Positions 13,670-39,961 of a stretch of DNA of 64,000 nucleotides are shown here, one piece after another (position 1 is the first letter of the stretch; every line of letters starts with the position of its first letter). A program made the translations under genes and the position numbers. The notes beneath the pieces are model-generated. The model had not been told where the DNA came from. It did not search any database and saw only the letters and a list, made by a program, of their open reading frames with translations. The stretch comes from Brachyhypopomus gauderio (lineage: Eukaryota > Chordata > Actinopteri > Gymnotiformes > Hypopomidae). The DNA is taken from positions 15,623,654 through 15,687,653 of the forward strand of contig NC_135223.1 of assembly GCF_052324685.1 (NCBI RefSeq), written 5' to 3'.

Positions 13670-15988
13670 ACATGCAAAGAGAACAGGAACCACTGCACTT
13701 CTGTCAACAGGTAATTCTGCTCTTTCATTTGATAATGCTGACATGAACAAGAACAAGACTAGCAGGTGATCCACTTCTGCGGTTTGCACGTGAGTGAGTG
13801 AACCTCCGCCTGTAAGTGTTCCAGCAGCTACAGACGACCTGCTTTCATCTGCTAGCAGAATGCGAATCACCAGACCAATGAGCGTCCTAGAACACACATC
13901 ATTGACGTGAAAAGATTGCTCTTTCACAAGACAAGTTTAGTTTGTCACAGGGATGCTACTCATGGAGCCCAATAAGGTGTAATAAGCACATAGAGGTTAT
14001 TTAGGTTTGTTTGTAACTGCAAACACAGGATGGGATGAAGCACAACATTGGAAATTGGTAGTACACAAAGGTGGAAAACTACAATTCCAACAGTGCATTG
14101 CACTAATCTGTATGGGATTGGTAGCACTGAGTACAGGTGAATGCCATCTGTGGACGTCTGTACGGGCTTGGCTGCTGAGGAGGCCCATATGGATTTTAGA
14201 GTTTAGAAAGTGATTGGTTGAGCAGAGGCAATGCAGCGGGTAAACACAGGGAACTGAATTCAAAGTGTGCTGTTGGTGTAGTGTGTAAAGTCCTTATGGA
14301 ACTGCTAGCACTGCATGCAGTGTCAGTGGTGCTGTGGAGGTACAGTTTTAGTCTCTGATTTAATTGACATTGAATGTAGAGGGGTGCATCTGGGAAACTA
14401 GATCTCAGAGATGAACTCTTCCATGGGTGTTATGTACTTAATTCAGTATAATACAGACAACCCCGGTGCAGAGCTTGCAAGGTAGTGGGGAAAAAAATCA
14501 GGCTCATTGAAATCTTAAACAGACCTGTAATTGCTATCAGAATCATTGTTTACATTTGCAACTGATGTAGAATAATTCCTATTTCTTTGTACTGGAAATG
14601 TAAGGACTCAGAGATACTGGCAGCTTCTCAAATATGAGCTTATGAAAATGATGAGGGGGAAAGGGAAACACACCTGCATCTTCTTCCTTCTGTCAAGATT
14701 ATTTGGTAATGGGAACAAAAGCAAGATTCAAACTAATTTAGAACTAGATAATATTCATGGAGCTGAAGGGACATTTGTATGCCCAAGGGACAGAGGACAA
14801 AGAACAGATGTCAAATTGTTGTATAATCTATATCAAATGTGTGATTAAAGTTTAAATGTAATGAATTTCCAGGTTCAGATTAAATGACTGGAGAATTTTA
14901 CAAAATTATTTCAAGTAGTCTCTCAACTTTATTACTAGAAGTATTAATACAGGGAATTCTCTGGAATATTCCCTCACTTGCTGACCCAAGGGTAATCACA
15001 TTATTCCCCACACCACACAAAAATCTCACACATAATTAATATAAAATAATTCACTGTATTTTTGGCACTAAAAGTAAAGTGAACTTTAAATAAAATAATT
15101 TTGACTTGATAAAAATCTGGCTTTAAAATAGGAAGACACATTGTTAACTTATTTTATTAACCAATGCATCACAGATTTATTTTAGGGTATTTTTTAAGTG
15201 TTTTGTGTGTGTGTGTGTGTGTGTGTGTGCACGCGCGCACCCATCTTGGTTGGTTGACAAATATAGCAGGAGCTGTTTATGAAAACTTAATTGACAATTT
15301 TGATACACTGTAATTGCATATTAGAAGGAAGTCCTTAGAAGAATGTAATTGCATATAACGAAAATATCTCCAGAATCTTTGAACATATATGTGGTTAAGG
15401 CATTCCATATGCAGTTAAGATTATTAAAATATGTTTTAAATCCCCTTAATTTAATGGGGAAAGTGAGGGCAGATAAATGATACATATTAAAGCCCACAGC
15501 ACACGGGTAAATTATCTTCACATTTGTCTGTCAAATCCACGTGTATTGTGGAGCGAATGCTGTGTTTAGATTACATGTGGGTCGACAAAAGTGCCCAACT
15601 GACCAAAAATGCTGTGTCCTCCGATGCTGTAGATATATGCACCTAGTAATACAGACGTCTAAAAACCAAACACGTTCTGAAATGTTTGCCTTAGCCTACC
15701 TTATGAAAGCTAAACCAAAACGTAGCGACAGAGTACCCTAATAACGCCAGTTCATTAGAAAAGTTAGCTATAGCTCAGCAATATAGCAATATTAAATGCC
15801 CAACTATATATAACAGACAGGGTTTCTCTCAAATATGACCGAAGAATGAACGTTGAGCTAGACACGGCGGAATTATTGAGTTACTTGAAGGGACAGCTAT
15901 TAGACCTACTGGACTTTTCCTCTGATTTCCATAACATTATCCAACGAACTCATGACACAATACGCAGATTAGCGGATTGTCACACGTA

Positions 15989-16272
15989 GTGTTGCCACCT
16001 GTCCCGGTTTTCACGTGCCTGTCCCGGTTTTCCCAGGCTGTCCCGGTTTGTCCCGGTTTTTCTTCTTTTTAATATTCGGTCCCGGCAAAAAAACTAGGTT
16101 AGTTCAAACCACGATTCAGACTGTTTCTGCACACTTAAAATCTGCTTTTTTTCTCTCGCTGTGTCCATTTAAAACTCCTCCGGTAACGGTTTACGTTCGC
16201 CACCCCCCGTCAACAGATTACACTCGCCACCCTGTGTCCTTTGTTTTTTGTCAGACCTAGGTGGCAACCCTA
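15989..16272. mobile_element. Short inverted-repeat element in unit 1
   Basis: Present only upstream of copy 1. The other five units read straight through the site (CACACGTAATTAG). The ends are inverted: TAGTGTTGCCACC on the left and GGTGGCAACCCTA on the right, with GTA on both sides as a possible 3-bp target duplication. The interior holds tandem copies of TGTCCCGGTTTT. It has no coding capacity; the family is not recognised. Confidence 0.6.
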
Positions 16273-16338
16273 GTAATTAGTCATCACTAATTGCTGTTAA
16301 TGAAGTCCAGGTGAAACAGGCGCCTAGTCGCGAGTTGA

Positions 16339-16352
16339 TTTGCATTATTTAA
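16339..16352 (+). promoter_or_regulatory. Core promoter of array copy 1 (octamer plus TATA-like box)
   Basis: ATTTGCAT (the reverse of the octamer ATGCAAAT) overlaps the start of TATTTAAA, about 55-70 bases upstream of the start codon, at a distance that suits a TATA box and a short leader. The element recurs in all six copies with variants: copies 3 and 5 have CTGCAT, which breaks the octamer, and copies 4 and 6 carry a deletion that turns the box into TATAAAG. Assigned by motif and position only. Confidence 0.45.
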
Positions 16353-16406
16353 AGCCCAGTCCAAGCGTCAAAATAGTATCGTATTGTTTTTGGGTAAGAT
16401 AGTATA

Positions 16407-16864
16407 ATGGGTGCTCAAAGACTTCTCGTTGTCAGTGTTCTGATCGCTATCCTTTGTCTCGGTAAGTTTCGCTTTGTTTGTGGTTATTTTGTATCTCGTT
16501 TGAAGGTGTGTTGGACGTTCTCAGTCTAACGAACCTCTGATGATATCGTAGCTCTTGCATCTCCGCGTGAGCGTCGACAGCCAAGTGAAGCAGGCCTGCT
16601 ATTACCGCGAGTGATCAGAGCTGAACAAGGTTTGAGTGTACATGACGTTTTGGGCCAATACGATGTTTTTCATTTTGGGGATTTGTGTGTATGCGTGGTC
16701 CTTGTGTCCATGGTTGGATCTAGTTCTCCATATTGTGGCTGAAGTGTGGTATCTGTCCAGGTGTTTTTGGAGAACCCATCAACGATGTGAAGCTGCTAAT
16801 CCATGATATGGATTTTGGTTCAGGCTTAGAGGAGACACTTAATGAGAAGGAAAGTACGAGCTAG
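16407..16864 (+). CDS. Array copy 1: unrecognised small secreted protein, 78 residues
   Basis: Exons 16407-16461, 16552-16629 and 16761-16864 (stop TAG), joined in phase 1 at both junctions with GT-AG introns of 90 and 131 bases. Residues 1-21 form a clear signal peptide: MGAQR, a run of hydrophobic residues, then ALA before Ser22. Next comes SPRERR (22-27), whose RERR is a furin-type R-X-R-R site, then Gln28, which could cyclise to pyroglutamate. The predicted mature chain (28-78) is acidic in its second half, has no cysteine and ends in STS. The exon continues four bases past the stop to a GTAAGT donor. A 3' exon from 17349 carries AATAAA at 17499. This copy differs from the others by Phe47 (Leu elsewhere). 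The intron 2 donor reads GTTTGA, which is weak. I do not recognise the family; a hormone-like or defence peptide is possible but unproven. Confidence 0.6.
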
Positions 16865-16950
16865 AAGGGTAAGTAACCACTGGAGTGATCCAATTGGTAC
16901 TGGAGAACCTGTGTAGTTCAGGCTTCTTCTTTCCTCTAGTAGTGTGGCAG

Positions 16951-17283
16951 CCATGGACGTAGTTTTGATTTCATAAGTGGGGGGGACACAACCTGGGGTG
17001 GCGAACTGTTGAGCGGGGGGGGGTTGAATGAAAATTGTTGAGCGCTGTGAACAAAAATTGTTGAGCGGGGGGGGGGAGCTCGGAGCTGCATGATCCTAGT
17101 GCTAGATTTGTCGCTATTTGGATATTGTTTTTTTAACCGTTAAAAAGTGGGGGGGACATGACTTCGTCGCTACTTAAATATTTGGTTTTAACTGTAAAAA
17201 CTGGGGGGGACCAAAACCGGCTTTTGAAAAAGTGGGGGGGGACATGTCCCCCCCCCCGTCCCCCCCCAAAACTACGTCCGTGG
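16951..17283. mobile_element. Non-autonomous inverted-repeat element in intron 3 of copy 1
   Basis: The ends are inverted: CCATGGACGTAGTTTTG on the left and CAAAACTACGTCCGTGG on the right. TGGCAG flanks both sides (16945-16950 and 17284-17289); an 8-bp TGGCAGCC duplication is equally possible if the element starts two bases later. The other units have the uninterrupted site. The interior is G-rich on the left and C-rich on the right with no gene. The duplication size suggests a hAT-type MITE. Confidence 0.75.
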
Positions 17284-17348
17284 TGGCAGCCCCTTTTTTT
17301 GGTTTCCCTTTGAATTTAAATGGCTCACGAGTAACCTTCTGGTTTCAG

Positions 17349-17504
17349 GGTCTGAATATAAAGGATGCAGTTCTTGCTGTGCCATCAACTTTCCCTAATC
17401 TTCCAGCTCCCATCTTCGGCACCTCTCGAACTGGCCTGGGTCCATGCAAGAGTTAATGGGCCTGAGCAACATCACATCTGCCCAAGAAATGGTTTCTGAA
17501 TAAA
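17349..17504 (+). other. 3' exon of array copy 1 with poly(A) signal
   Basis: The exon follows a pyrimidine tract and CAG at 17346-17348. It contains AATAAA at 17499-17504. If exon 3 of the gene is skipped, this exon continues the main frame for 16 codons and encodes a tail with KGCSSCC before a TAA at 17396-17398. The same exon starts at 26255, 29157, 32088, 35299 and 38425 in the other copies. It is normally untranslated if exon 3 is included. Confidence 0.5.
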
Positions 17505-20219
17505 TGGTTTTGAGGAACTGCTGGTCACTGTCCTTTCTCCAACATTTGGTGTTGTGCTGGGCTAAACCCATGTTACAATCCATCTATCTCCCACCCACTC
17601 CTGTGAAATTTCTTGCTTGAGCTAAAGAAAAGCCTCTGGCAATTGTAGAGAAAATGGTGTACAGCGTTCTTAACTAATGATGGCAGGCGTCGGACTATAT
17701 GGTTCTGAAGTAGTGTCTTTCTGTGGAAGATTTCATTACTGTGCTGCATCAATTTATGAAAAATTTAATCAACCTGAAGTTGGGGGATTTTGTAGAAGAT
17801 TTCACTGGGGGTTGGAAGGTCTAATGCAGAGAAGGAAGGAATACCCACAATTTTGTTGCAATGCGAATCCACCCCTACACTTTTGTCAAATTTTAAACGC
17901 TGATTTCCCAGCACACCCCCAATTTTGAAAAGATTACTACACCCCTGCAGCTATGTACAAGTGCACATGACGTCCCAAAAGGTTCCATGGTATTCCATTA
18001 GTGTAATTCAAATGTTTAATCTAAAGCAGTTATGCCACTAACAAATGACTGAGGTATATGCATGCTTGAATTTCCCGAGCAGAAACGTTCTGATACAGAT
18101 ATTTCAAGGTACACAAATGATATGAAGGACCATAATGAGATTCATAAAGCAGGGGAAAGATTTTTATCATTAATTTATTGTACATTGAATCTAGATTTTT
18201 GTTGTAAATTTAAGATACAAACGAAGTTAACTTTTTGCCATTTAATATAGGTTTTCTATGTAAGCCAAGTGTATTATGCAGCGAATGTAATTTAAAAACA
18301 ACATATGGATCGACAAGAGAACCAATAGATTTTTGTTATGATTTACCAAATATGCAGTAACCTCCAAATGCTGGTAAGATATGCACCTGGTAAGACGTTT
18401 ATAAAGGGGGAAAAATTGAAAACCTATCAAAAGAAACTGATAAATTTGGTTTCATGTTTGTATATAACTACAGATTTTTCTCTTCAGTAACCATAAAGCT
18501 GTATCGGCAAAAATGCTAAAATATGCAAATTCTAATTTCTGGTAGCCAAAACAAATACCTCCTTTGCGTCAGGAATGGAAATATTTTAAATTGTAGACAA
18601 CTTTATATAAAATATACTATTGTGACCCCTACAGTGTCTAAGGCACGTCTACAAATTACCATAACACGGACGCAATTGGCAGTAAGAAAGGCCCCCGAGC
18701 ACTGCGCACTGTTTTTGGAATAATTTCAATAGCTTTTAAGCGGTCCATCATAAGACCGCAAAACAAGTTTTATTACACAAAGTGCATCCTGAATAAAAAC
18801 CTACAACTCTTATAAGGGTATTTCTAACTCTTACCTATTTGTGGTGGTGAGTTTTTGTCTAAGAATTTCAATAGCTATTACAGTTTTTCTCAATTGCTAA
18901 AACACAAAACTGTTGTCTGAACGAAATTCTCAGTGTCCTAAACCCATTTATTGAAATTGTCACCCATTTGGCAAACCATAAGCACATTTCAACTAGTTAG
19001 TCACAACAGGTTGACCCTTTTGGTAGAACCTTAAGCACCTTTCACTTATTAAGAAACAGTTTGCAAATGTATTTTCACCCAATGAAACATATTGCTCTGT
19101 GATGCACTTGGTTTGCATAATGGTAAGCACAGGTAGCAAAAGTGAAACTCAAATAAAGCGCTGGTCTTACAACTGAAACACAGCCACTCTAAATTGATCA
19201 CACATATGACAAATGATCTGAAGAAACCAATATTACCCAGCAGGAGGAGGTCTGGTTGTAGAAGTTTCACTATGGATAGAAACAGTCAGAGAGGCAGGGT
19301 AAGAGGAGGAAGAAGAGGAGGGATGAGACAAAGAATGATAATTTCAGATGAAATATGGGCAACCATCATTGACCACGTTCTTGTCCATGGATTGACTATG
19401 AGGGAAGCAGGACTTTGAGTTCAGCCCAACCCGAGTGGATTCACCGTGTCCACCATAGACACATATGAACATTCATAGAGGACACCAGGTAATTGCTTTA
19501 TTCATTTTGTATATATTTACAGTATGACTCAATACAGATCTGTAAAAAGATGTTTCATTATATGAATTTCCTAAAATATTTGTAGTCTTAGTGCTGCATG
19601 TAATATTTTGTAATGGCATGTTCTTTTGTAGAATTGCAAGACTGCCACGTTGGGGGGAGGACATCTATGTTGAAGCCACAGCACCTGTAAAATCTGATGT
19701 AGCTATTACCCTGAGTCTGAGGTGGCATGCTATTGTGATGGTATGTCTGTGAGAACATATAGGAAAGGGAACAGATTGCCATTGCCATCTTCCTTTATTA
19801 GAAGCCACACGTCCAACACAATCCAGTCAGACAGTAGTCCAGTTCAAACAATAGAATCACATGAATAACAAACATTCCAGTGGTCTATGCTCCATATATA
19901 CACTGCTCAAAAAATAAAGGGAACACTTAAACAACACAATATAACTTCAAGTCAACCACACTTCTGTGAAACCAACCTGTTCAGTTAGGAAGCAACACGG
20001 ATTGTGAATCAATTTCACCTGCTGTTGTGCAAATGGAATAGACAACAGGTAGAAATGAGAGGCAATTAGCAAGACCCCCCCTATAAAGGAGTGGATCTGC
20101 AGGTGGGGACCACAGACCACTTCTCAGTACCTATGCTTTCTTGCTGATGTTTTGGTCACTTTTGAATGTTGGTGGTCCTTTCACACTCGTGGTAGCATGA
20201 GATGGACTCTACAACCCAC

Positions 20220-20502
20220 TGTTACATCCCGGTCTAGGCTACGGGGTATAACAGCAACGAAGACGAACTCAGAGAAATATGCGGAAGTGAATCGGGGTTG
20301 TATTTACATGTGTGCATTTATTTTATACAGTGGAGGGTTGATTTCTCAGGAACCGACAGTGCTCAAAATAACAAACAATAATTCAACAACCAACAAATAA
20401 ACACAAAACTGCAAATAAAAGAGCGTCGTGTTCCCTACTCACCCAAACCACAACCAAACCAAATGTTACGTACAATAATTACAAGACGTGGGCTTTATAC
20501 AG

Positions 20503-20575
<73 letters not shown>

Positions 20576-20927
20576 TGAATGTTTAACCAACAACCAGAAC
20601 CGAAATGGGGCAAAACCAGAATCAATATCGACAAACCAGATCAAATCGGTACACAGAATTCGAATACACAGCACACCAACAATATCGCAACAATGCACGC
20701 TCTCTCTACTCTCCCCTCCTCGTCCCTGCCGACTCTGCGCGGTCTTTATCCGAAGCTGATGGCACACGTCACGTCTTGTCCGCCAATCACCTGGGGAATC
20801 CGGAGGTAAGGCGTGGCGAAGAAGTTAGGGACGAGAGGGTGCGACGGCATCCCGAGGACGACAGCGGAGCAGCAGAAAAACACAACAACAACAACAACAA
20901 CAACAACAGGCACGCAGGGCCGTAACA
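20220..20927. mobile_element. Solo LTR of a retrotransposon
   Basis: A 708-bp insertion begins TGTTAC and ends GTAACA, with the 4-bp duplication CCAC on both sides (20216-20219 and 20928-20931). The TG...CA ends plus short duplication are the signature of an LTR. No internal gag/pol region is present, so this is a solo LTR left by recombination. It contains a long AT microsatellite (20503-20570) and an (ACA)n run near 20880. It interrupts the Tc1 transposase region near its 5' end. Confidence 0.75.
20503..20570. repeat. (AT)n microsatellite
   Basis: About 34 AT units inside the solo LTR. Confidence 0.95.
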
Positions 20928-20929
20928 CC

Positions 20930-21932
20930 ACACAAGTGGCTCAGGTAGTGCAGCTCATCCAGGATGGCACATCAATGCAAGCTGTGGCAAGAAGGTTTGC
21001 TGTGTCTGTCAGCGTAGGGTCCAGAGGCTGGAGGCATTACCAGGAGACAGGCCAGTACACCAGGAGATGTGGAGGAGGCCGTAGGAGGGCAACAACCCAG
21101 CAGAAGGACCACTACCTCCGCCTTTGTGCAAGAAGGAACAGGAGGAGCACTGCCAGAGCCCTGCAAAATGACCTCCAGCAGGCCACAAATGTGCATATGT
21201 CTGCACAAACGGTTAGAAACCGACTCCATGAGGATGGTATGAGGGCCCGACGTCCACAGATGGGGGTTGTGCTCACAGCCCAACACTGTGCAGGACGCTT
21301 GGCATTTGCCAGAGAACACCAGGATTGGCAAATTCGCCACTGGCACCTTGTGCTCTTCACAGATGAAAGCAGGTTCACACTGAGCACGTGACAGACGTGA
21401 CAGAGTCTGGAGATGCCGTGGAGAGCGATCTGCTGCCTGCAACATCCTTCAGCATGACCGGTTTGGCAGTGGGTCAGTAATGGTGTGGGGTGGCATTTCT
21501 TTGGAGGGCCGCACAGCCCTCCATGTGCTCACCAGAGGTAGCCTGACTGCCATTAGGTACCGAGATGAGATCTTCAGACCCTTTGTGAGACCATATGCTG
21601 GTGCGGTTGGCCCTGGGTTACTCCTAATGCAGGACAATGCTAGACCTCATGTGGCTGGAGTGTGTCAGCAGTTCCTGCAAGATGAAGGCATTGAAGCTAT
21701 GGACTGGCCCGCCCGTTCCCCAGACCTGAATCCGATTGAGCACATCTGGGACATCATGTCTCGCTCCATCCACCAACGTCACGTTGCACCACAGACTGTC
21801 CAGGAGTTGGTGGATGCTTTAGTCCAGGTCTGGAAGGAGATCCCTCAGGAGACCATCCGCCACCTCATCAGGAGCATGCCCAGGCGTTGTAGGGAGGTCA
21901 TACAGGCACGTGGAGGCCACACACAATACTGA
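20930..21932 (+). pseudogene. Broken Tc1 transposase
   Basis: The first frame (to 21391) encodes the paired HTH DNA-binding region ([18 protein letters not shown] onward) and reaches the first catalytic Asp in FTDESRF, then stops. Compared with intact relatives, a small deletion near 21387 shifts the frame. The second frame (21480-21932) supplies the second Asp in MQDNARPH and the Glu in NPIEHIWD, giving the Tc1 DDE triad, and ends at TGA near 21932. The start region is separated by the solo LTR. It cannot make an intact transposase. Confidence 0.85.
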
Positions 21933-22185
21933 GCCTCATTTTGACTTGTTTTAAGGACATTACATCAAAGGTGGATCAGCCTGTAGTGTGTTTTTCCACT
22001 TTAATTTTGTGTGTGGCTCCAAATCCAGGCCTCCATTGGTTAATAAATTTGATTTCCATTGATGATTTTTGTGTGATTTTGTTGTCAGCACATTCAACTT
22101 TGTACAGAACAAATATGAGAATATTTCATTCATTCAGATCTAGGATGTGTTATTTGAGTGTTCCCTTTATTTTTTTGAGCAGTGT

Positions 22186-24295
22186 CCTTTGATGCACAAC
22201 ATGGGTCAAAAGTGACCCGGCTGAGTTTTTATTTTCTATATCTTTGCAATAAATTAATTTAATCATTCAGCCTTCAAGGTATTCCTCAATTAACTTGTTT
22301 TGATCATCATATATCCTTAATTATTTTTTTCATTTCTTAGTTTTTGAATAAAAACCCTTTTTGTATCACTACCCCTCTAATGCGCAACATGGGTCTAACA
22401 TGACCCGCATTCATTTTCTATGTTACTTCATATTTGGCTGAGTGTTTCTATGGTATATCTTTTAAATTAATAAATCATTAATCATTTTCTATCCCAAGTT
22501 TGCAGTAAATATCTTGTTTTTGTTTAAAACAAATCTTGATTGTTATTTTCCTTTTTTACTTTCAGAAAAAACACACCTTTTGTATTACATCAAGTTTACA
22601 CACATTGGTCACAAACGACCCACATGCATTTACCATTTCATAACTCACCACAGCTCCCATCACACAAGTATTGTTTTTTCAATTGTTCTAACATTAGAAA
22701 ATATTTTGATGATCTTTGGGAAAGACAATTGTACATACTGTAATATTTCATTAGGTTTAGGTTACCTTGAGAGTGAGTACATTACTTGTAAGAAGGTCAC
22801 AAGTAATTATTATTTACTAGCTAACTGTTGAACCTCGAAGAGGCCTGTGGTTCTCTAGTACAACATGGTGGGTGTTTCCATCCTCAATGTCTACACCAAC
22901 TTCACCTGCACAACACCCTGGTGATATGGGTGGTGTGAACGCTGCATGGCTGCAATTTATCAAGGAACTGAGCAAAAATCTTGTCATGCCACATATAAAG
23001 AGGTACATGGAGGGCTCACCCAAACTCCAACAGCATGTGCTTGAGGCAGTGGGAAGATGTGGGTTACAAAAACAAACCACAGCCACCACCCATCCTCAAA
23101 AAGACATCCCAAAGGAGGGCCAACGACAGAGGAAGAGGTGCGCTCGCTGCCCTCTTCCTGAAGACAGAAAGAGGAAAAGGTCCAAAGACAGAAAGGCCAG
23201 CCAGGCAGGTGAACCAGATGCCTGAACCACCTCAACTGGCTCCTCTCTACAAGACGGAGCAGCGACTCTACTCCGAGTCTCTCCCGGATGACCGTACTCC
23301 TCACCTTATCTCTAAGGGAGACCCAAACACCCAGCAGAGGAAACTCATTTCAGCTGCTTGTATTCGCAGTCTCATTCTTTGTCTCATTGTATTCATGATC
23401 TCATACTAGCCAAAGCTTACAGTATGACCATAGGTGAGACTTGGAATGTAGACCATTAAAAACCCTTCACCACAACTGTGGTTCACAACAGCGTTCGCGA
23501 CACTGCAGAGGCTGCACCGATCTGCCTGTCACCCACCTGTTTTCTGCTCACTGTCCTCACCCGAGCGTCTCTTTTCACCTGTCCCTCATCCCCTTGTCTG
23601 TGTTTGTATTCAAGTCCAGTTTTCTGTTCAGCCTTTGTTGCATCATTAGTCTTCCACACTAAGTGTTGCGGTATTTATCTTATAGTCATCATAGTCAGAG
23701 TCATAATCTTAAGGTCTTGTTGTCCTGTTCTGCTTTCCCTATTTGTCTTGTTCTTCCATTTTCTGTTTTTGGATCTTGCCTATACCCTTTATTGGTTATT
23801 TTGAAGATGCTTTGTTTAAATTTCCTCTGCCTTTGATGTCTGCATTTGGGTGGTCACTTTGAAAACCTGACATTATGTGTGTGTGTGTGATAAAATGAAA
23901 AATATGTGGCAAAAACCAAATGAATGTTTGTCCCCACTCACTACTAGTTTTAAGTAACTACTTAAAACTAGTTATTATTGGATTATGTTACTTTATTTTA
24001 TATCACATTTGGATGAAGGGGTAATTTTGACCCATGTGTGTAAATTCAATGTACTATTATAGAAACTATTTTTGTTCAATAAGTATTAAAGTACAAATGA
24101 AAATAATTATCAGCAGTGATCAAAAACAAGATATTTAATGAATATTTGGAATATTCAATCATAAAAGGAATAGATTCAAAAGACAGGAACACAGAAAAAC
24201 CCTACCAGCATTATATGACACTGGATATGAATGTGGGTCATTTTTGACCCATGTTGTGCGTTAGAGGGGGTATGCATATGTTGCGCATCAAAGGG
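22186..24295 (+). mobile_element. piggyBac-like element, decayed
   Basis: Inverted ends CCTTTGATGCACAACATGGG (22186) and GTTGCGCATCAAAGGG (ending 24295). A second inverted pair lies just inside: CCTCTAATGCGCAACATGGG near 22374 and CCCATGTTGTGCGTTAGAGG near 24250. GGGTC-N6-GACCC type palindromes recur beside each end. The interior encodes a piggyBac-like transposase C-terminus (separate entry). I could not find the TTAA flanks expected for piggyBac, so the family call rests on the protein and the ends. Confidence 0.6.
22837..23225 (+). pseudogene. piggyBac-type transposase C-terminal remnant
   Basis: Read from 22837 the frame gives KRPVVL, a stop, then YNMVGVSILNVYTNF, which resembles the conserved RWPxxLFxNMxDxSxxNA region of piggyBac/PGBD transposases. 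After a frameshift it continues in the frame of 22872-23225 with WLQFIKELSKNLVMPH and later KRCARC, the start of the C-terminal zinc-finger region. The second half of the finger is lost. The N-terminal catalytic part is not recognisable. Recognition is by motif memory, without a database search. Confidence 0.6.
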
Positions 24296-24823
24296 ATATA
24301 CAATACATATAGCTGTAGATGTTTGTTTAATGGTAAAATGATAGTGGACATTTGATGATGGATGGATGTAGCAACAAAGGATGCTTTATGTAATTATGCA
24401 TCCTCAATGGGATTAAACCTCCTGCCCTCTTACATATTTGGTGTGCACAATACAAATGGCCTACTCTAGTTTTTTATACTCTAAGTCTCACCCCCTTCCT
24501 GGAGCAAGAACTTCTGGGATTTGGAGAACAGACTTCTGGGATTCTGAATTCCAAATTCTTCTGGAGTTTTTTTTACACCAAGAGACCCTCATTGCTGACA
24601 TGGCCCATCAGAACAATGCAATCACAGTGCGTGAAATACAGCAGAAAATCATTGAAGACCATGTCAACTGTGACTGCATAAACAATATCAGCCCTTCCAC
24701 CACTGATCGTGTCCTAAAACGCAACAGAATGCAAATGAAGCAACTGTACCTTTGACCGCAATGACTCTGTACAACTCTATGTGGGGTGAATGCACTGTAC
24801 ACATGTTGCAATGTATTTCTTTG

Positions 24824-24826
<3 letters not shown>

Positions 24827-24877
<51 letters not shown>
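24827..24877. repeat. (TA)n microsatellite
   Basis: About 25 TA units inside the right arm of the IS630-like element. Confidence 0.95.
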
Positions 24878-24882
<5 letters not shown>

Positions 24883-25652
24883 TCCAGCTTCAAGATCTGA
24901 TCATCGTGTTTTCCTTTTTAGGTGTTGTGTGTAATGACTGTTCATTGCTGTTTTTATTTTGATTGACACAAGGCCTGATTTTACAACATTGTTTCATTTT
25001 GAGCACTGCTTGAACTGTTTTGAGGCAATAGTTTGGTTCTGCAGGAAGAGTCAAAGGTTTTGTGAATTTAGTGTGTGAACTGGGTTTTGTGTTTACAGTT
25101 TGGAGAAATAGATGCATGGTTTCAGGAAATGTGTCTTGGCAATTGAGAAAAACTGTAAACGGTTCAGAAGTTTAAAAACCAATACCTTTCTGAAATGTTT
25201 GCCAGAAACCTTATGAAAGCTAAACCACCATGTAGTGGCAGAGTACTCTGTGCTATTAAATGAGAAACTTTAGTAATGTGACATTTTCGTATTACAAAAT
25301 TAACAGCTCTGAAACTCAGCTACGCTAACTGCTGAACTAAAATAACAGGATTTCTATCAAATACTAAGAGTGACTGTTGAGCGGGAAACAGTCGGGATGT
25401 AGCAGTATTATTGAATTACTCGAACGAATAACTATAGCTGAACCTTTCCTGTGATTTCCGGGACATTGTGTAACAAGTCAAGACAAAATGCCCAGATTAG
25501 CGGATTGTCACACGTAATTAGTCATCACTAATTGCTGTTAATGAAGTCCAGGTGAAACAGGCGCCTAGTCCCGAGTTGATTTGCATTATTTAAAGCCCAG
25601 TCCAAGCGTCAAAATAGTATACGGTTGTATTGTTTTTGGGTAAGATAGTATA

Positions 25653-28569: not shown

Positions 28570-29014
28570 ATGGGTGTTCAAAGACTTCTCGTTGTCAGTG
28601 TTCTGATCGCTATCCTTTGTCTCGGTAAGTTTTGCTTTGTTTGTAGTTATTTTGTATTTCGTTTGAAGGTGTGTTGGACGTTCTCAGTTTAACAAACCTC
28701 TGATGTTGTAGCTCTTGCATCTCCTCGTGAGCGTCGACAGCCAAGTAAAGCAGGCCTGCTATTACCGCGAGTGATCAGAGCTGAACAAGGTTTGTGTGTA
28801 CATGAAGTTTTAGGCCAAGACTATGTTCCTTTCATTTTGGGGTTGTGTATGCGTGGTCCATGGTTGGATCTAGTTCTCCATATTGTGGCTGAAGTGTGGT
28901 ATCTGTCCAGGTGTTCTTGGAGAACCCATCAACGATGTGAAGCTGCTAATCCATGATATGGATTTTGGTTCAGGCTTGGAGGAGACACTTAATGAGAAGG
29001 AAAGTACAAGCTAG
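28570..29014 (+). CDS. Array copy 3: unrecognised small secreted protein, 78 residues
   Basis: Exons 28570-28624, 28712-28789 and 28911-29014 (stop TAG). The 3' exon starts at 29157 with AATAAA at 29307. Differences are Val3 for Ala, Glu31 changed to Lys just after the furin site, and Leu47. Intron 2 is shorter than in copy 1 through small deletions. The promoter octamer is altered (ATCTGCAT). It shares Val3 and the promoter change with copy 5, not with the adjacent copies 2 and 4, which shows a two-gene duplication block. Confidence 0.6.
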
Positions 29015-31491
29015 AAGGGTAAGTAACCACTGGAGTGCTCCAATTGGTACTGGAGAACCTGTGTAGTTCAGGCTTCTTTCCTCTAGTAGTGTGGCAGCCC
29101 CTTTTTTTGGTTTCCCTTTGAATTTAAATGGCTCACGAGTAACCTTCTGGTTTTAGGGTCTGAATATAAAGGATGCAGTTCTTGCTGTGCCGTCAACTTT
29201 CCCTAATCTTCCAGCTCCCATCTTCGGCACCTCTCGAACTGGCCTGGGTCCATGCAAGAGTTAATGGGCCTGAGCAATGTCACATCTGCCCAAGAAATGG
29301 TTTCTGAATAAATGGTTTTGAGGAACTGCTGGTCACTGTCCTTTCTCCAACATTTGGTGTTGTGCTGGTCTAAACCCATGTTACAATTCATCTATCTCCC
29401 ACCCACTCCTGTGAAATTTCTTGCTTGAGCTAAAGAAAAGCCTCTGGCAGTTGTAGAGAAAATGGTGTACAGCATTCTTAACTAATGATGGCAGGCGTTG
29501 GACTATATGGTTCTGAAGTAGTGTCTTTCTGTGGAAGATTTCATTACTGTGCTGCATCAATTTATGAAAAATTTAATCAACCTGAAGTTGGGGAGTTTTG
29601 TAGAAGATTTCACTGGGGGTTGGAAGTTCTAATGCAGAGAAGGAAGGAATACCCACAATTTTGTTCAAATGTGATTCCACCCCTACACTTTTGTCAAATT
29701 TAAACGCTGATTTCCCAGCACACCCTCAAATTTGAAATGATTACTACACCCCTGCAGGTATATATAAGTGCACATGACGTCCCAAAAGGTTCCATGATAT
29801 TCCATTAGTAAAATTCAGAAGTTTAATCTAAAACAATTATGCCACTAACAAATGACTATATAGATGGGGTTTATGATGGCTTGAATTTCCTTTTTTTTTT
29901 TAGAGCAGAAACGTTCTGATACAGATACGGTTAAAAATACACATGATATTCGGCTTCATAAAGCCTGAGATTCATTTTTTTTTTTTTTTTTTTTGAAAAA
30001 ATAAATCTAGGGTTTCCTTCTAAATTGAACAGATACAAAGTTAACTGACATTTAACCTAGGTTTTCTGTGTCAACCAAGTGTATAATTTGGTGAATGTTG
30101 TTTAAATATGGGTGGACAAAATAATACAATTGATTTTTGGTATGCAGTATTCTCCAGATGCTAAAGACATGCACCTGGTAATTCCATAAAGTGAAAAACC
30201 AAAAAATAAAATTGAAAACCTATCAAAACTGTGGAAAAGTTGGTTTCATGTTTGCATATACAGAATTCTTTAATAACCATAAGGATGTATCAGCAACAGT
30301 GCCAAACTGCAGATTCTTATTTCTGAGTACGTCTTTGGAGTTATATTTCAGACATGGATCAAAACCATCAGAGTTCATAGGATTATAAATTCGTACAGCC
30401 CTCAGAGTTCTGTAGCCCAGCGCAGGGAGTACAGATTCACAACACACAGGTGTCAGGAAAGAGTTCCAAAGTTTAATGATACTATACGATGATACGATTT
30501 GATTATGTAGTTAAATACAGAGTGAAGATGTGTCAACCCAATTGGGTAAGAATAATAAAACATGTATGATTTGTGTTCTTATCAGGAGAGGAGGCACAGT
30601 AGACTGGAACTAGGGGAAGTGTAAAAGTACAGAAAGAGCGGTAGAGAGAGAGAGGTTCTAACTGAGGAGCAAACACACAGATAACGGAGTGAATTAAATG
30701 TCAGTGTTCTGACTGAGGGTCACAGACAGTAAATCACAAATATCATTACACAAAGTGCATCCTAAATAACAAATTACAACTTTTATATGGGTATTTCCAT
30801 CTTGCACTAATTTGGGGTGGTCAGTTGTTGTCTTATTTTAATAGCTTTTAAACTGTCCATCATAAGACCAACAAACAAGTTCTATTACACAAAGTGCATC
30901 CTAAATAAAAACCTACAACTCTTATATGAGTATTTCTACCTCTTATTTATTTGTGGTGGTGAGTGTTTGTCTAAGAATTTCAGAAGCTTTTAAATGGTTC
31001 AGAAGTTTAAAATTCAAAACCTTCCTGAATTTTTTGCCAGAAAACTTATGAAAGCTAAACCACCATGTAGTGGCAGAGTACTCTATGCTATTAAATGAGA
31101 AACTTTAGTGATGTAGCATTTTCCAAATTACACAATTAACAGCTCTGAAACTCAGCTACGCTAACTTCGGAACTAAAATAACAGTCAAGATTTCTATCAA
31201 ATACTAAGAGTGACCATTAAGCGGGAAACAGTTGGGATGTAGCAAGATTATTGAATTACTCGAACGAATAACTATCGCTGAACCTTTCCTGTGATTTCTG
31301 GGACATTGTGCAACGGACTCATGACACAATACGCAGATTAGCGGATTGTCACACGTAATTAGTCATCACTAATTGCTGTTAATGAAGTCCAGGTGAAACA
31401 GGCGTCTAGTCGCGAGTTGATTTGCATTATAAAGCCCAGTCCAAGCGTCAAAATAGTATACGGTCGTATTGTTTTTGGGTAAGATAGTATA

Positions 31492-31943
31492 ATGGGTGCT
31501 CAAAGACTTCTCGGTGTCAGTGTTCTGATTGCTATCCTTTGTCTCGGTAAGTTTCGCTTTGTTTGTAGTTATTTTGTATCTTATTTGAAGGTGTGTTGAC
31601 GTTCTCAGTCTAATGAACCTCTGACGATGTCGTAGCTCTTGCATCTCCACGTGAGCGTCGACAGCCAAGTGAAGCAGGCCTGCTATTACCGCGAGTGATC
31701 AGAGCTGAACAAGGTTTGTGTGTACATGACGTTTTAGGCCAAGACTATGTTTTTCATTTTGGGGATGTGTGTATGCGTGGTCCTTGTGTCCATGGTTGGA
31801 TCTAGTTCTCCATATTGTGGCTGAAGTGTGGTATCTGTCCAGGTGTTCTTGGAGAACCCAACTATGTGGAGCTGCTAATCCATGATATGGGTTTTGGTTC
31901 AGGCTTAGAGGAGACACTTAATGAGAAGGAAAGTACAAGCTAG
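31492..31943 (+). CDS. Array copy 4: unrecognised small secreted protein, 77 residues
   Basis: Exons 31492-31546, 31636-31713 and 31843-31943 (stop TAG). The 3' exon starts at 32088 with AATAAA at 32238. It is the most changed protein: Gly8, Leu47, loss of Ile51 by an in-frame 3-bp deletion, Asp53 to Tyr, Lys55 to Glu and Asp62 to Gly (copy 1 numbering). The frame, furin site and stop are kept. The promoter has TATAAAG in place of TATTTAAAG, as in copy 6. Confidence 0.58.
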
Positions 31944-33959
31944 AAGGGTAAGTAACCACTGGAGTGATCCAATTGGTATTGGAGAACCTGTGTAGTTCAG
32001 GCTTCTTCTTTCCTCTAGTAGTGTGGCAGCCCCTTTTTTGGTTTCCCTTTGAATTTAAATGGCTCACGAGTAACCTTCTGGTTTCAGGGTCTGATTATAA
32101 AGGATGCAGTTCTTGCTGTGCCATCAACTTTCCCTAATCTTCCAGCTCCCATCTTCGGCACCTCTCGAACTGGCCTGGGTCCATGCAAGAGTTAATGAGC
32201 CTGAGCAATGTCACATCTGCCCAGGAAATGGTTTCTGAATAAATGGTTTTGAGGAACTGCTGGTCACTGTCCTTTCTCCAACATTTGGTGTTGTGCTGGT
32301 CTAAACCCATGTTACAATCCATCTATATCCCACCCACTCCTGTGAAATTTCTTGCTTGATCTAAAGAATAGCCTCTGGCAGTTGTAGAGAAAATGGTGTA
32401 CAGTGTTCTTAACTAATGACAGATGTCGGACTATATGGATCTGAAGTAGTGTCTTTCTGTGGAAGATTTCATTACTGTGCTGCATCAATTTATGAAAAAT
32501 TTAATCAACCTGAAGTTGGGGAATTTTGTAGAAGATTTCACTGGGGGTTGGAAGGTCTAATGCAGAGAAGGAAGGAATACCCACGATTTTGTTCAAACGC
32601 GATTCCACCCCTACACTTTTGTCAAATTTTAAAGCTGATTTCCCAGCACACCCCCAATTTTGAAAAGGTTTCTACACCCCTGCAGGTATGTACAAGTGCA
32701 CATGACGTCCCAAAAGGTTCCATGGTATTCCATTAGTATAATTCAAAAGTTTAATCTAAAGCAGTTATGCAACTAACAAATGACTATATAGATGGGATTT
32801 GATGGATTGAATTTTTTTTTTTTTAGAGCAGAAACGTTCTGATAGATACGGTTCAAAATACACATGATATGAAGGATCATAAGCGGCTTCATAAAGCCTG
32901 AAATTCTTTTATTTATTTTTTTTTATTAATCCGTTTTCCTTCTAAATTGAACAGATACAAAGTTAACTTTGACATTTAACCTAGGTTTTCTGTGTCAACC
33001 AAGTGTATAATTTGGTGAATGTTGTTTAAACATGGGTGGACAAAATAATACAATTGATTTTTGGTATGCAGTATTCTCCAGATGCTAAAGACATGCACCT
33101 GGTAATTTCATAAAGTGAAAAACCAAAAAATAAAGATAAATTTGAAAACCTATCAAAACTGGTAAAGTTGGTTTCATGTTTGCATATACAGAATTATTTC
33201 TTTAACCATAAGGATGTATCAGCAACAGTGCCAAACTATGCATACTCATTTCTGAGATTACTTCTTTTGGAGTCATCTTTCAGACATGGATCAAAACCAT
33301 CAGAGTTCATAGACAGGATTATAAATTTGTACAGGCCTCAGAGTTCTGTAGCCCAGCGCTGGGAGTACAGATTCACAACACACAGGTGTCAGGAAAGGGT
33401 TCCAAAGTTTAATGATAATATATGTAGTTAAATACAGAATGAAGATTTGTGTTCTCCTGATCAGGAGAGGAGGCACAGTAGACTGGAACTAGGGGAAGTG
33501 TAAAAGTACAGGGAGAGCGTTAGAGAGAGAGAGGTTCTAACTGAGGAGCAAACACACAGATAACGGAGTGAATTAAATGTCAGTGTTCTGACTGAGGATC
33601 ACAGACAGTAAATCACAAATACCATTACACAAAGTGCATCCTACATAAATTACAACTTTTATATGGGTATTTCCATCTTGCACCAATTTGTGGTGGTCAG
33701 TTGTTGTCTTATTATTTCAATAGCTTTTAAACTGTCCATCATAAGACCACCAAACAAGTTCTATTACACAAAGTACATCCTAAATAAAAACCTACAAATC
33801 TTATATGGGTATTTCTACCTCTTATTTATTTGTGGTGGTGAGTGTTTGTCTAAGAATTTCAGAAGCTTTTAAACGATTCAGAAGTTTAAAATTCAAAACA
33901 TTCCTGAATTTTTGCCAGAAAACTTATGAAAGCTAAACCACCATGTAGTGGCAGAGTAC

Positions 33960-34291
33960 ATTTACATTACATTTATGGCATTTACCAGACGCTCTTATCC
34001 AGAGCGACTTACAAAAGTGCTATGTAGTTGCTTGGAATCTCCAAGGTAGAATAGATAGTCCTGAACACAAGGTACTCTAAGCTGGAAAAAACCACTAGAC
34101 GAAAGTCAAATGATACCTAACAATTATACCTGAATATACACATCCCCTGAGGAAAAAGACAGTAAACAATTCCTATAACCCAATTATGCACAATACCTGA
34201 GGAAAGAGACGATAAAGTACAATAGACAAAGCATAATTATGCAAAGTGCACTTGAAAGAGGTGGGTCTTCAGTCGGCGTCTGAAGACAGCA
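33960..34291. mobile_element. 332-bp non-autonomous element in unit 4
   Basis: Flanked by the 7-bp duplication AGAGTAC (33953-33959 and 34292-34298); the uninterrupted site is present in units 2 and 3. It begins TTTACATTACATTTATGGC and contains CTTATCCAGAGCGACTTAC, a motif very common in teleost interspersed repeats. A related fragment lies at about 44622-44670. It has no coding capacity. It inserted after the block duplication, because the matching unit 2 lacks it. Confidence 0.75.
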
Positions 34292-34709
34292 AGAGTACTC
34301 TATGCTATTAAATGAGAAACTTTAGTGATGTAGCATTTTCCAAATTACACAATTAACAGCTCTGAAACTCAGCTACACTAACTGTTGAACTAAAATAACA
34401 GTCAGGATTTCTATCAAATACTAAGAATGACCGTTGAGTGGGAAACAGTCGGGATGCAACAGGATTATCGAATTACTCGAACGAATAACTATCGCTGAAC
34501 CTTACCTGTGATTTCCGGGACATTGTGCAACGAGTCAAGACAAAACACGCAGATTAGCGGATTGTCACACGTAATTAGTCATCACTAATTGCTGTTAATG
34601 AAGTCCAGGTGAAACAGGCGCCGGGTCGCGAGTTGATCTGCATTATTTAAAGCCCAGTCCAAGCGTCAAAATAGTATACGGTCGTATTGTTTTTAGGTAA
34701 GATAGTATA

Positions 34710-35156
34710 ATGGGTGTTCAAAGACTTCTCGTTGTCAGTGTTCTGATCGCTATCCTTTGTCTCGGTAAGTTTTGCTTTGTTTGTAGTTATTTTGTATTTC
34801 TTTTGAAGGTGTGTTGGACGTTCTCAGTTTAACAAACCTCTGATGTTGTAGCTCTTGCATCTCCTCGTGAGCGTCGACAGCCAAGTGAAGCAGGCCTGCT
34901 ATTAACGCGAGTGATCAGAGCTGAACAAGGTTTGTGTGTACATGACGTTTTAGGCCAAGACTATGTTCCTTTCATTTTGGGGTTGTGTGTATGCGTGATC
35001 CATGGTTGGATCTAGTTCTCCATATTGTGGCTGAAGTGTGGTATCTGTCCAGGTGTTCTTGGAGAACCCATCAACAATGTGAAGCTGCTAATCCATGATA
35101 TGGATTTTGGTTCAGGCTTAGAGGAGACACTTAATGAGAAGGAAAGTACAAGCTAG
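34710..35156 (+). CDS. Array copy 5: unrecognised small secreted protein, 78 residues
   Basis: Exons 34710-34764, 34852-34929 and 35053-35156 (stop TAG). The 3' exon starts at 35299 with AATAAA at 35449. Differences from copy 1 are Val3, Pro37 to Thr, Leu47 and Asp53 to Asn. The promoter octamer is altered as in copy 3. The furin site and Gln28 are kept. A hAT-like MITE lies 0.75 kb downstream in its 3' flank. Confidence 0.58.
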
Positions 35157-35914
35157 AAGGGTAAGTAACCACTGGAGTGCTCCAATTGGTACAGAAGAAC
35201 CTGTGTAGTTCAGGCTTCTTTCCTCTAGTAGTGTGGCAGCCCCTTTTTTTGGTTTTCCTTTGAATTTAAATGGCTCACGAATAACCTTCTTGATTCAGGG
35301 TCTGAATATAAAGGATGCAGTTCTTGCTGTGCCATCAACTTTCCCTAATCTTCCAGCTCCCATCTTCGGCACCTCTCGAACTGGCCTGGGTCCATGCAAG
35401 AGTTAATGGGCCTGAGCAACATCACATCTGCCCAAGAAATGGTTTCTGAATAAATGGTTTTGAGGAACTGCTGGTCACTGTCCTTTCTCCAACATTTGGT
35501 GTGCTGGTCTAAACCCATGTTACAATCCATCTATCTCCCACCCACTCCTGTGAAATTTCTTGCTTGAGCTAAAGAAAAGCCTCTGGCAATTGTAGAGAAA
35601 ATGGTGTACAGCATTCTTAACTAATGATGGCAGGCGTCGGACTATATGGTTCTGAAGTAGTGTCTTTCTGTGGAAGATTTCATTACTGTGCTGCATCAAT
35701 TTATGAAAAATTTAATCAACCTGAAGTTGGGGAATTTTGTAGAAGATTTCACTGGGGGTTGGAAGTTCTAATGCAGAGAAGGAAGGAATACCCACAATTT
35801 TGTTAAAACGCGAATCCACCCCTACACTTTTGTCAAATTTTAAACGCTGATTTCCCAGCACACCCCCAATTCTGAAAAGGTTACTACACCCCTGCAGGTA
35901 TGTACAAGTGCACA

Positions 35915-36117: not shown

Positions 36118-37824
36118 AGTGCACATGACGTCCCAAAAGGTTCCATGATATTCCATTAGTATAATTCAGAAGTTTATTCTAAAACAATTATGCCACTAAC
36201 ATGACTATATAGATGGGATTTATGATGGCTTGAATTTCCTTTTTTAGAGCAGAAACGTACTGATAGATACGGTTCAAAATACACATGATACGAAGGACCA
36301 TATTCGGCTTCATAAAGCCTGAGATTTTTTTCTTTTTTTTGAAAAATAAATCTAGGTTTTCCTTCTAAATTGAACACATACAAAGTTAACTTTTTGACAT
36401 TTAACCCAGGTTTTCTGTCAACCAAGTGTATAATTTGGTGAATGGTGTGTTTTAAATATGGGTGGACAAAAGAACACTTGATTTTTGGTATGCAGTATTC
36501 TCCAGATGTTAAGACATGCACCTGGTAATTAATTCCATAAAGTGAAAAACCAAAAATTAAATTGAAAACCTATCAAAACTGTGGAAAAGTTGGTTTCATG
36601 TTTGCATATACAGAATTCTTTAATAACCATAAGGATGTATCAGCAACAGTGCCAAACTATGCAGATTCTTATTTCTGAGTACGTCTTTGGAGTTATATTT
36701 CAGACATGGATCAAAACCATCAGAGTTCATAGGATTATAAATTCGTACAGCCCTCAGAGTTCTGTAGCCCAGCGCAGGGAGTACAGATTCACAACACACA
36801 GGTGTCAGGAAAGAGTTCCAAAGTTTAATGATACTATATATGTAGTTAAATACAGAATGAAGATGTGTCAACCCAATTGGGTAAGAATAATAAAACATAT
36901 GTATGATTTGTGTTCTCCTTATCAGGAGAGGAGGCACAGTAGACTGGAACTAGCGAAAGTGTAAAAGTACAGGGAGAGCGGTAGAGAGAGGTTCTAACTG
37001 AGGAGCAAACACACAGATAACGGAGTGAATTAAATGTCAGTGTTCTGACTGAGGGTCACAGACAGTAAATCACAAATACCATTACACAAAGTGCATCCTA
37101 AATAACAAATTACAACTTTTATATGGGTATTTCCATCTTGCACTAATTTGGGGTGGTCAGTTGTCTTATTTCAATAGCTTTTAAACTGTCCATCATAAGA
37201 CCAACAAACAAGTTCTATTACACAAAGTGCATCCTAAATAAAAACCTACAACTCTTATATGAGTATTTCTACCTCTTATTTATTTGTGGTGGTGAGTGTT
37301 TGTCTAAGAATTTCAGAAGCTTTTAAACGGTTCAGAAGTTTAAAATTCAAAACATTCCTGAATTTTTTGCCAGAAAACTTATGAAAGCTAAACCACCATG
37401 TAGTGGCAGAGTACTCTATGCTATTAAATGAGAAACTTTAGTGATGTAGCATTTTCCAAATTACACAATTAACAGCTCTGAAACTCAGCTACGCTAACTT
37501 CTGAACTAAAATAACAGTCAAGATTTCTATCAAATGCTAAGAGTGACCGTTAAGTGGGAAACAGTCGGTATGTAGCAGGATTATTGAATTACTCGAACGA
37601 ATAACTATCGCTGAACCTTTCCTGTGATTTCTGGGACATTGTGCAACGGACTCATGACACAATACGCAGATTAGCGGATTGTCACACGTAATTAGTCATC
37701 ACTAATTGCTGTTAATGAAGTCCAGGTGAAACAGGCGCCTAGTCGCGAGTTGATTTGCATTATAAAGCCCAGTCCAAGCGTCAAAATAGTATACGGTCGT
37801 ATTGTTTTTGGGTAAGATAGTATA

Positions 37825-38280
37825 ATGGGTGCTCAAAGACTTCTCGGTGTCAGTGTTCTGATTGCTATCCTTTGTCTCGGTAAGTTTCGCTTTGTTTGTG
37901 GTTATTTTGTATCTCATTTGAAGGTGTGTTGGACGTTCTCAGTCTAACGAACCTCTGATGATGTCGTAGCTCTTGCATCTCCGCGTGAGCGTCGACAGCC
38001 AAGTGAAGCAGGCCTGCTATTACCGCGAGTGATCAGAGCTGAACAAGGTTTGTGTACATGACGTTTTAGGCCAAGACGATGTTTTTCATTTTGGGGATTT
38101 GTGTGTATGCGTGGTCCTTGTGTCCATGGTTGGATCTAGTTCTCCATATTGTGGCTGAAGTGTGGTATCTGTCCAGGTGTTCTTGGAGAACCCATCAACG
38201 ATGTGAAGCTGCTAATCCATGATATGGATTTTGGTTCAGGCTTGGAGGAGACACTTAATGAGAAGGAAAGTACGAGCTAG
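37825..38280 (+). CDS. Array copy 6: unrecognised small secreted protein, 78 residues
   Basis: Exons 37825-37879, 37970-38047 and 38177-38280 (stop TAG). The 3' exon starts at 38425 with AATAAA at 38575. It has Gly8 and Leu47 and otherwise matches the common sequence. The promoter has TATAAAG together with an intact ATTTGCAT. The unit ends just past the poly(A) signal, where similarity to the other units stops, so this copy closes the array. The long 3' flank of the other copies is missing. Confidence 0.6.
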
Positions 38281-38599
38281 AAGGGTAAGTAACCACTGGA
38301 GTGATCCAATTGGTACTGGAGAACCTGTGTAGTTCAGGCTTCTTCTTTCCTCTAGTAGTGTGGCAGCCCCTTTTTTGGTTTCCCTTTGAATTTAAATGGC
38401 TCACGAGTAACCTTCTGGTTTTAGGGTCTGAATATAAAGGATGCAGTTCTTGCTGTGCCATCAACTTTCCCTAATCTTCCAGCTCCCATCTTCGGCACCT
38501 CTCGAACTGGCCTGGGTCCATGCAAGAGTTAATGGGCCTGAGCAATGTCACATCTGCCCAGAAAATGGCTTCTGAATAAATTATTTTAAGGAACTGCTT

Positions 38600-39961
38600 T
38601 TCTGTGTGCTTCTTGGCCCAGTGTAGTTGTAGTTCGTGTGACTAACAGGCTGTTTTAAGAAGACTGGTTAATGTTTACTAATCTTGTCTGTCATTGTCAT
38701 TATAGCATATAATGGCTACGTTTTGGTTGGAGTGTCCTTCACACACTAGCAGTACTGCCTCCAATAGGTTTATTATATATGTGAATGCATGGCTCCTGTT
38801 GGGATGGTTCAGGCTGCATTATAGTTGAGGTCTCAATTTGGTGTCCTCTCTGAGGTGACATTTAAAGCGCAGGAGTGATGGGTGTTCAAGCGTTCAATGG
38901 TCATGCCATGCTTACTCTTCACTGCTCACATACTCCAATCTGAAAGGCTCTGTTGGGTTGCTTGTGTCCTGAAGCCTGTGACCCCACTGTGGTGTTTGGT
39001 TAGCGTGGCACCTCTGTTCTAGCTAAGCTTGGTGGTAGGCAGGCAAGAAGCATTGTTGGATTGCACCACCACACAAAGGGAAAGGGCTGGATGTCCAGTG
39101 AGGAGGGTCAGCTTCACAACGGAGGCTTTTGTGGGCCGGGATGTGCATGCTTTGGACTTTGTGACCATATGAGCTGTTCACATGCAATATAATTTTTTGG
39201 GCATACTAAAGGAACGGGAGAAAAGAGAGCAGCTATGTAAATCAGAAATCTATAGTGGGAACATTTTTAAACTTTTTTAATTTTTTTTGGCAGTAATTCT
39301 GCAGACCGTGTCAAAGCCAGTATAAGCATTACTTGTACTTGTGACAAAGGTGTAGTTTATAAACTGTGACGGCAATACAGAGAGCTGTTGATACAATATG
39401 CTTCAAGTCCTCACAGCTGAGCCACATCTCACAGCGTTTTGGGTGGTTTTGTAAATCTAATGTCACTGTCCATTTAAAGCATTAAAATGGCCATTAAGTT
39501 GTATCACTAGTTCCTTCTGTATCGGTTCTTGGTTCAACAGTCATTATAATCAAAACAAACACTAGCATAAAGATCATCTTAAATGAGAGTGCACCAGATA
39601 ATACTCTACCATGTGTAGATCTTGTATTAATTTGGGGAAACTAGTAGTGGTGAATCAGCTATGCAAAACACTTTGGTTAAGCTCTGTTTATGGCCAATAC
39701 ATGACGCTCTTATTAAAAATACTACTTATCCAATAGAATACACACACAAATGCTTTCTGCAGAGCACATTAACATGAAGGACATTAAGGTACAAGTTGAT
39801 ATGACACAATTGAAGGAAACGGGTGTAAAGTCTTTGTATGCTGCGCCAAGTTCCCAAAGTTTTGCTGCACACAGTGGACACATGCAGGTTCAGAGGCGCC
39901 TTCAGAAACGTCCACTAGCCTACAGAAAATGAGAATTTGAACATTCGAGCATGTCGCCTCT
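38600..39961. other. Spacer between the array and prtfdc1
   Basis: No gene recognised. The prtfdc1 3' untranslated region must extend leftward from 39962 into it; the nearest minus-strand AATAAA that I found is distant (38769-38774). A 60-codon plus-strand open frame at 39750-39932 has no similarity that I recognise. Confidence 0.4.

Follow-up and report, generated by a model that had tools for sequence, protein, structure and literature searches.

A tandem array of six small genes was analysed in a stretch of 64,000 nucleotides (nt) of the Brachyhypopomus gauderio genome (contig C13, positions 15623654-15687653; hereafter the window), and relatives were sought across the 796.5 Mb of the genome in its 840 contigs. 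The obtained results showed that the array is one branch of a larger family, with 19 loci beyond it. The gene plan, the promoter and the pattern of substitution point to a dosage-amplified family of small secreted proproteins processed at an RxxR site, a reading that we consider probable. What appeared to be a local array has thus become a defined family: it divides into three subfamilies, follows a strict gene plan and has a promoter element that is private to it. The first-pass annotation of this DNA, which had described a six-copy array of an unrecognised secreted and furin-processed protein, is partly supported; the six copies are real, but they form only one branch of 25 loci.

Gene plan of the array and of the wider family

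The six copies are direct tandem repeats on the + strand, located between positions 16296 and 38580 of the window, with ATGs at 16407, 25653, 28570, 31492, 34710 and 37825. Their features are given below, where each exon 1 is its coding part, each exon 3 runs to the TAG stop and exon 4 belongs to the 3' untranslated region (3'UTR).

Copy 1, 16296..17504, + strand: promoter element 16296-16311; TATTTAAAG at 16346; exon 1 16407-16461; exon 2 16552-16629; exon 3 16761-16864; exon 4 from 17349; AATAAA 17499-17504; 78 residues
Copy 2, 25537..26410, + strand: promoter element 25537-25552; TATTTAAAG at 25587; exons 25653-25707, 25798-25875 and 26007-26110; exon 4 from 26255; AATAAA 26405-26410; 78 residues
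Copy 3, 28454..29312, + strand: promoter element 28454-28469; TATTTAAAG at 28504; exons 28570-28624, 28712-28789 and 28911-29014; exon 4 from 29157; AATAAA 29307-29312; 78 residues
Copy 4, 31378..32243, + strand: promoter element 31378-31393; TATAAAG at 31428; exons 31492-31546, 31636-31713 and 31843-31943, exon 3 with a 3-nt in-frame deletion; exon 4 from 32088; AATAAA 32238-32243; 77 residues
Copy 5, 34594..35454, + strand: promoter element 34594-34609; TATTTAAAG at 34644; exons 34710-34764, 34852-34929 and 35053-35156; exon 4 from 35299; AATAAA 35449-35454; 78 residues
Copy 6, 37711..38580, + strand: promoter element 37711-37726; TATAAAG at 37761; exons 37825-37879, 37970-38047 and 38177-38280; exon 4 from 38425; AATAAA 38575-38580; 78 residues; the repeat unit stops right after this copy

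Each copy is predicted to be a compact RNA polymerase II gene for a small secreted proprotein. The coding part of exon 1 measures 55 nt, exon 2 measures 78 nt and exon 3 measures 104 nt up to the TAG (101 in copy 4), while the two coding introns (87-90 nt and 121-131 nt) are both in phase 1. A third intron interrupts the 3'UTR, with its donor located 4 nt past the stop in all six copies. The intact ATG, GT-AG exons, TAG and AATAAA that had been reported for the array were borne out, with GT/AG present in 18/18 introns (three per copy) and AATAAA at position +150 of exon 4 in 6/6 copies. The claim of a single coding indel of exactly three bases also held; it lies in copy 4, which encodes 77 residues, and the other five spliced products have 78. 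An A at -3 and a G at +4 give every ATG a strong start context. Exon 1 encodes the predicted signal peptide and the symmetric exon 2 holds the RERR, which is followed by Gln in every product. A loss of 2 nt in copies 4 and 6 has converted TATTTAAAG to TATAAAG, which retains the TATA box.

The distinctness of these gene starts was assessed by scanning the 2569 ATGs of the window on both strands for a 12-residue mean hydropathy of at least 2.9 and a GTRAGT donor 40-75 nt downstream. Exactly six ATGs qualified, those of the array, at a hydropathy threshold that had been lowered to let all six copies through; at a stricter threshold, a hydrophobic start was found at 17 ATGs and a donor as well at three of them.

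A protein search of the genome returned the six array copies and one on C14, and nothing more. The C14 copy (16116243-16116698) is intact, has the same splice sites as the array and keeps RERR; it is flanked by myomesin-1-like and myosin-regulatory-light-chain-like genes, a neighbourhood unlike that on C13. When the DNA of copy 3, together with its promoter and introns, served as the query, 14 places came up on C5 and a single one on C2, with identities of 65-69%. The search from a C5 gene then added more C5 places and one on C3, and the search from the C3 gene yielded no further loci in the genome. This illustrates how easily small, single-domain secreted precursors with tiny exons are missed, as the protein search gave seven copies and the DNA search with promoter and introns gave the rest. 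No relatives were confirmed in viral and prokaryote contigs.

The family comprises 25 loci, 24 of them with an intact frame, distributed over C13 (6), C14 (1), C5 (16), C2 (1) and C3 (1), and it divides into a C13/C14, a C5/C2 and a C3 subfamily. The 16 loci of the C5 cluster span 215 kb on both strands, and 15 of them hold an intact 73-residue frame, one of these with a first intron of 5.1 kb. The C2 copy is intact, and the C3 locus would encode 78 residues, provided that the modelled splicing of its last intron is correct. The C5 cluster begins just past two tandem, mutually different beta-2-microglobulin genes (exons L031 5709-6059 and 8237-8572; C5 at 4243.8 and 4246.3 kb), and an irak1-like gene was recognised by eye, without a Pfam match, on its other side.

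Selection on the coding sequence

The coding status is decided by the genome-wide comparison of the subfamilies, in which nonsynonymous change is depressed, as expected under purifying selection. Exon 1 is 55 nt long in all subfamilies and exon 2 is 78 nt long (75 in C3), the phases are 1 and 1 throughout, and a further intron lies near the stop. The protein alignment included 23 sequences, of which seven came from the C13/C14 subfamily, 15 from C5/C2 and one from C3. It omitted the copy that has the 5.1 kb intron, and 19 of its columns are invariant. Across the three subfamily comparisons, the mean proportions of synonymous and nonsynonymous differences (pS/pN) were 0.53/0.33, 0.69/0.40 and 0.56/0.31. 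The corresponding Fisher P values of 0.006, 0.00009 and 0.001 are only rough, as the pairs are non-independent and the counts entered were rounded means. Within the C5/C2 subfamily the pooled pN/pS was 0.59.

Comparisons at shorter distance weigh against this interpretation. Mean divergence among the six array copies was 2.7% in the coding sequence and 2.5-8.0% in the introns, promoter and flanks. Since the coding sequence diverges about as much as its introns, conservation among the six copies alone is no evidence of coding, and the first-pass argument from intact frames is weaker than it seemed. The ratio of nonsynonymous to synonymous rates (dN/dS) between copies, which had been put forward as a check, ranged from 0.32 to 1.01 and was rejected as proof of coding because there is too little divergence; a permutation test of substitutions in seven copies (the array and C14) was not significant (P = 0.27). 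Against the C14 copy, the array differs by 3.6-6.7% in exons, 4.8-5.6% in introns 1-2 and 12-14% in intron 3 and exon 4, so that here too the coding sequence is no better conserved than introns 1-2. In favour of coding, a single coding indel (3 nt) contrasted with 14 indels in 480 nt of adjoining non-coding sequence (P = 0.02), but the P value rose to 0.10 when the non-coding stretch was chosen differently. On the opposing side, one C5 copy (1 of the 17 in C5/C2) is frameshifted.

The similar conservation of exons and introns 1-2 and the non-significant substitution test would suit a duplicated non-coding block whose open frames are chance features. This explanation is largely refuted by the comparison between subfamilies, in which the diverged C5/C2 and C3 relatives keep the frame, splice sites, phases, stop and 3'UTR intron and show pN below pS, and we regard it as hardly credible.

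Promoter, predicted product and history of the array

The genome holds 21 occurrences of a 16-nt promoter element, GTTAATGAAGKCCAGG, all of them 107-120 nt 5' of an ATG of the family. Assuming even base use, about 0.7 occurrences would be expected by chance, and the reversed element, used as a control, has none. The exact element is found at 6/6 loci on C13, 13/16 on C5, 1/1 on C2, 1/1 on C3 and 0/1 on C14, where it is mismatched; its absence from four of the 25 loci (C14 and three on C5) counts against the preferred reading. Once the promoters of the three subfamilies are aligned, a TATA-like box is seen downstream of it. An element that is both shared and private to the family implies shared regulation. 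GTTAAT may correspond to half an HNF1 site and the remainder, loosely, to a site of HNF4 or SF-1 type, a reading that would point to liver, gut or kidney.

Many near-identical copies with one promoter on several contigs might also encode an abundant gamete, seminal, egg-coat or pheromone protein, with the copy number raised for output. Secreted families that are restricted and fast-evolving are often reproductive, which counts in favour of such a reproductive or chemosensory secretion. The promoter, however, holds no pointer to the gonad, and we consider this role unlikely.

The preferred reading, a secreted proprotein amplified for dosage, is supported by the conservation of a signal peptide and a convertase site, under selection, in the three subfamilies. 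Both cleavages were judged from motifs only, which tempers the prediction, and it is at this level that the earlier description, of a small precursor that is secreted and bears a site of furin type, is supported. In the C13/C14 type the RxxR is RERR and occupies residues 24-27; in the other subfamilies it is kept two residues further on, at 26-29, as REQR (C5/C2) or RQQR (C3). Gln after the site is restricted to the C13/C14 type. A pyroglutamate start, as previously proposed, is therefore predicted for that type, where RERR-Q is present in 6/6 array copies, and not for the other subfamilies. The C13/C14 and C5/C2 subfamilies have a second RxxR, RVIR, that C3 lacks, and the core E-[AT]-G-LLL-x-RVI ... 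GE ... GSG is conserved in most members.

The signal peptide would be cleaved at ALA|S or AFG|S, and a furin-type convertase would then cut at RxxR to remove a propeptide of 6-8 residues, so that a chain of about 44-51 residues would be released into the secretory pathway. A cut at RVIR could divide the chain further in the C13/C14 and C5/C2 subfamilies. In the 51-residue chain predicted for the array, 10 residues are acidic and four are basic, the isoelectric point (pI) is 4.35 and cysteine is absent, the sole Cys of the product being at position 17 of the signal peptide; a hypothetical 14-residue N-terminal piece would have a pI of 9.6. Inspection by eye of the aligned array and C14 products revealed no amidation signal (Gly before a basic cleavage site).

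An alternative isoform that skips exon 3 was also considered. Joining exon 2 to the start of exon 4 (17349-17400 in copy 1) gives the cysteine-rich tail GSEYKGCSSCCAINFP in frame in 6/6 array copies, of which copies 3 and 4 each show a single change; the isoform is disfavoured, as the frame is lost in C14.

Divergence along the units is mosaic, in that copies 2 and 4 are nearly identical over about 1 kb downstream and show several differences per 150 nt across the gene. This indicates block duplication and gene conversion. In exon 3 of copy 4 (31843-31943), the 3-nt deletion and three amino-acid changes fall within a few codons, and the downstream kilobase almost equals that of copy 2. Copies 1 and 2 are irregularly spaced, at 9.2 kb, because a unit of about 2.9 kb is extended by an insertion of about 6.3 kb:

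18881..25155, no strand assigned: insertion between copies 1 and 2, outside the gene; its inverted ends match (CAGTTTTTCTCAATTGC), and more repeats are nested inside

A Tc1-like element and other repeats were recognised by eye within it. Sequence 90% identical to the right end of the insertion and its flank lies 5' of the C14 copy, which suggests that the C14 copy may derive from a unit like copy 2.

Given near-identical products, the same promoter and homogenisation in blocks, the array most likely raises dosage and not peptide diversity. In this mechanism it would act as a dosage device, supplying near-identical proproteins from one promoter type. The protein nevertheless differs in every array copy, so that some diversification is possible. 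The dosage role itself is something we infer, and simple copy-number drift may account for the array: a functional gene would then have been multiplied by unequal crossing-over in a repeat-rich setting, in the absence of selection on dosage. The mosaic units, the transposons in and around them and the frameshifted copy are in keeping with drift. The 24/25 intact loci, the exact promoter element at 21/25 and the presence of clusters on both C5 and C13 speak against it, and we rate drift as rather unlikely. The most specific form of the dosage reading is offered tentatively, as a possibility that falls short of being probable: an undescribed prohormone-like or bulk-secretion family of fish, with a private promoter element and an RxxR site releasing an acidic chain of 44-51 residues, which dosage selection would have brought to about 25 loci on at least five contigs.

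Among the surroundings of the array, a repeat of about 290 nt at 15986-16275, just 5' of copy 1, has many genome matches at 80-90% identity among the 40 scored of 1242 candidates. An RNA-family search of the window gave a single match and none inside the genes; this was the UnaL2 3' element of a long interspersed nuclear element (33972-34025, - strand), which explains part of the extra length of the spacer between copies 4 and 5. Enkurin and a thnsl1-type protein were clearly identified to the right of the array. The array had been placed between arhgap21 and prtfdc1. On the right, prtfdc1 is represented by a Pfam match below the cut-off; on the left, arhgap21 was not identified within the window, and the nearest RhoGAP exons, about 54 kb further left, are consistent with that placement.

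Comparison with known families

No Pfam family scored above the cut-off for any protein version sent, the weak viral and GPR15L matches covering the signal peptide only. Solved structures (PDB) gave no match, and text searches of the open literature for the gene, its peptides and its neighbours returned nothing relevant. The family may be undescribed, in the limited sense that no counterpart was found in Pfam, PDB and the open literature.

The known genes closest in plan are those of fish hepcidin, and the resemblance is striking. According to the excerpts of PMC3325200, hepcidin has three coding exons, of which exon 2 measures 78 nt, and its introns are about 87-114 and 118-191 nt long; the precursor carries an RX(K/R)R site, the genes are clustered in certain fish, and the mature peptide contains six to eight conserved cysteines. 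The array shares with that description the small secreted precursor, the three coding exons, the 78-nt exon 2, similarly short introns (87-90 and 121-131 nt) and the clustering. RERR in the six array copies and C14 fits RX(K/R)R, whereas REQR (C5/C2) and RQQR (C3) fit only RxxR. Compared with hepcidin, the coding part of exon 1 is 55 nt and not 87, an extra 3'UTR intron is present, a Pfam match is lacking, and the mature chain is acidic and has no Cys.

A defence role like that of the fish hepcidins, in which an expanded host-defence gene yields a peptide that kills or binds microbes, had been among those suggested for the array. The likeness of gene plan (PMC3325200, as excerpted) and the two beta-2-microglobulin genes adjoining the C5 cluster favour it. 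The acidic (pI 4.35), cysteine-free chain, the absence of a Pfam match above the cut-off and the near-identity of the copies, which show no arms-race diversification, make it very unlikely.

Other classes can be compared in the same way. Cationic antimicrobial peptides are positively charged, which a chain of pI 4.35 is not; a bulk-secretion product or hormone-like factor fits better. Amidated neuropeptide precursors carry Gly before a basic site, a feature missing from the array and C14 products. GPR15L (PF15854) gave a weak match in the signal-peptide region only (E = 0.2; 12.4 bits, where the cut-off is 27) with a query one Leu short; the correct sequence had no match at E up to 1, and the array chain has no cysteines. 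The introns of SCPP genes are all in phase 0, whereas the coding introns of the array are in phases 1 and 1. Plasma proteins such as proalbumin and pro-apolipoprotein A-II have a propeptide of 5-6 residues that ends in basic residues right after the signal peptide, and pro-apolipoprotein A-II yields an N-terminal Gln. Although sequence similarity to these two was not found and their gene plan is different, the short-propeptide layout of the array product is alike.

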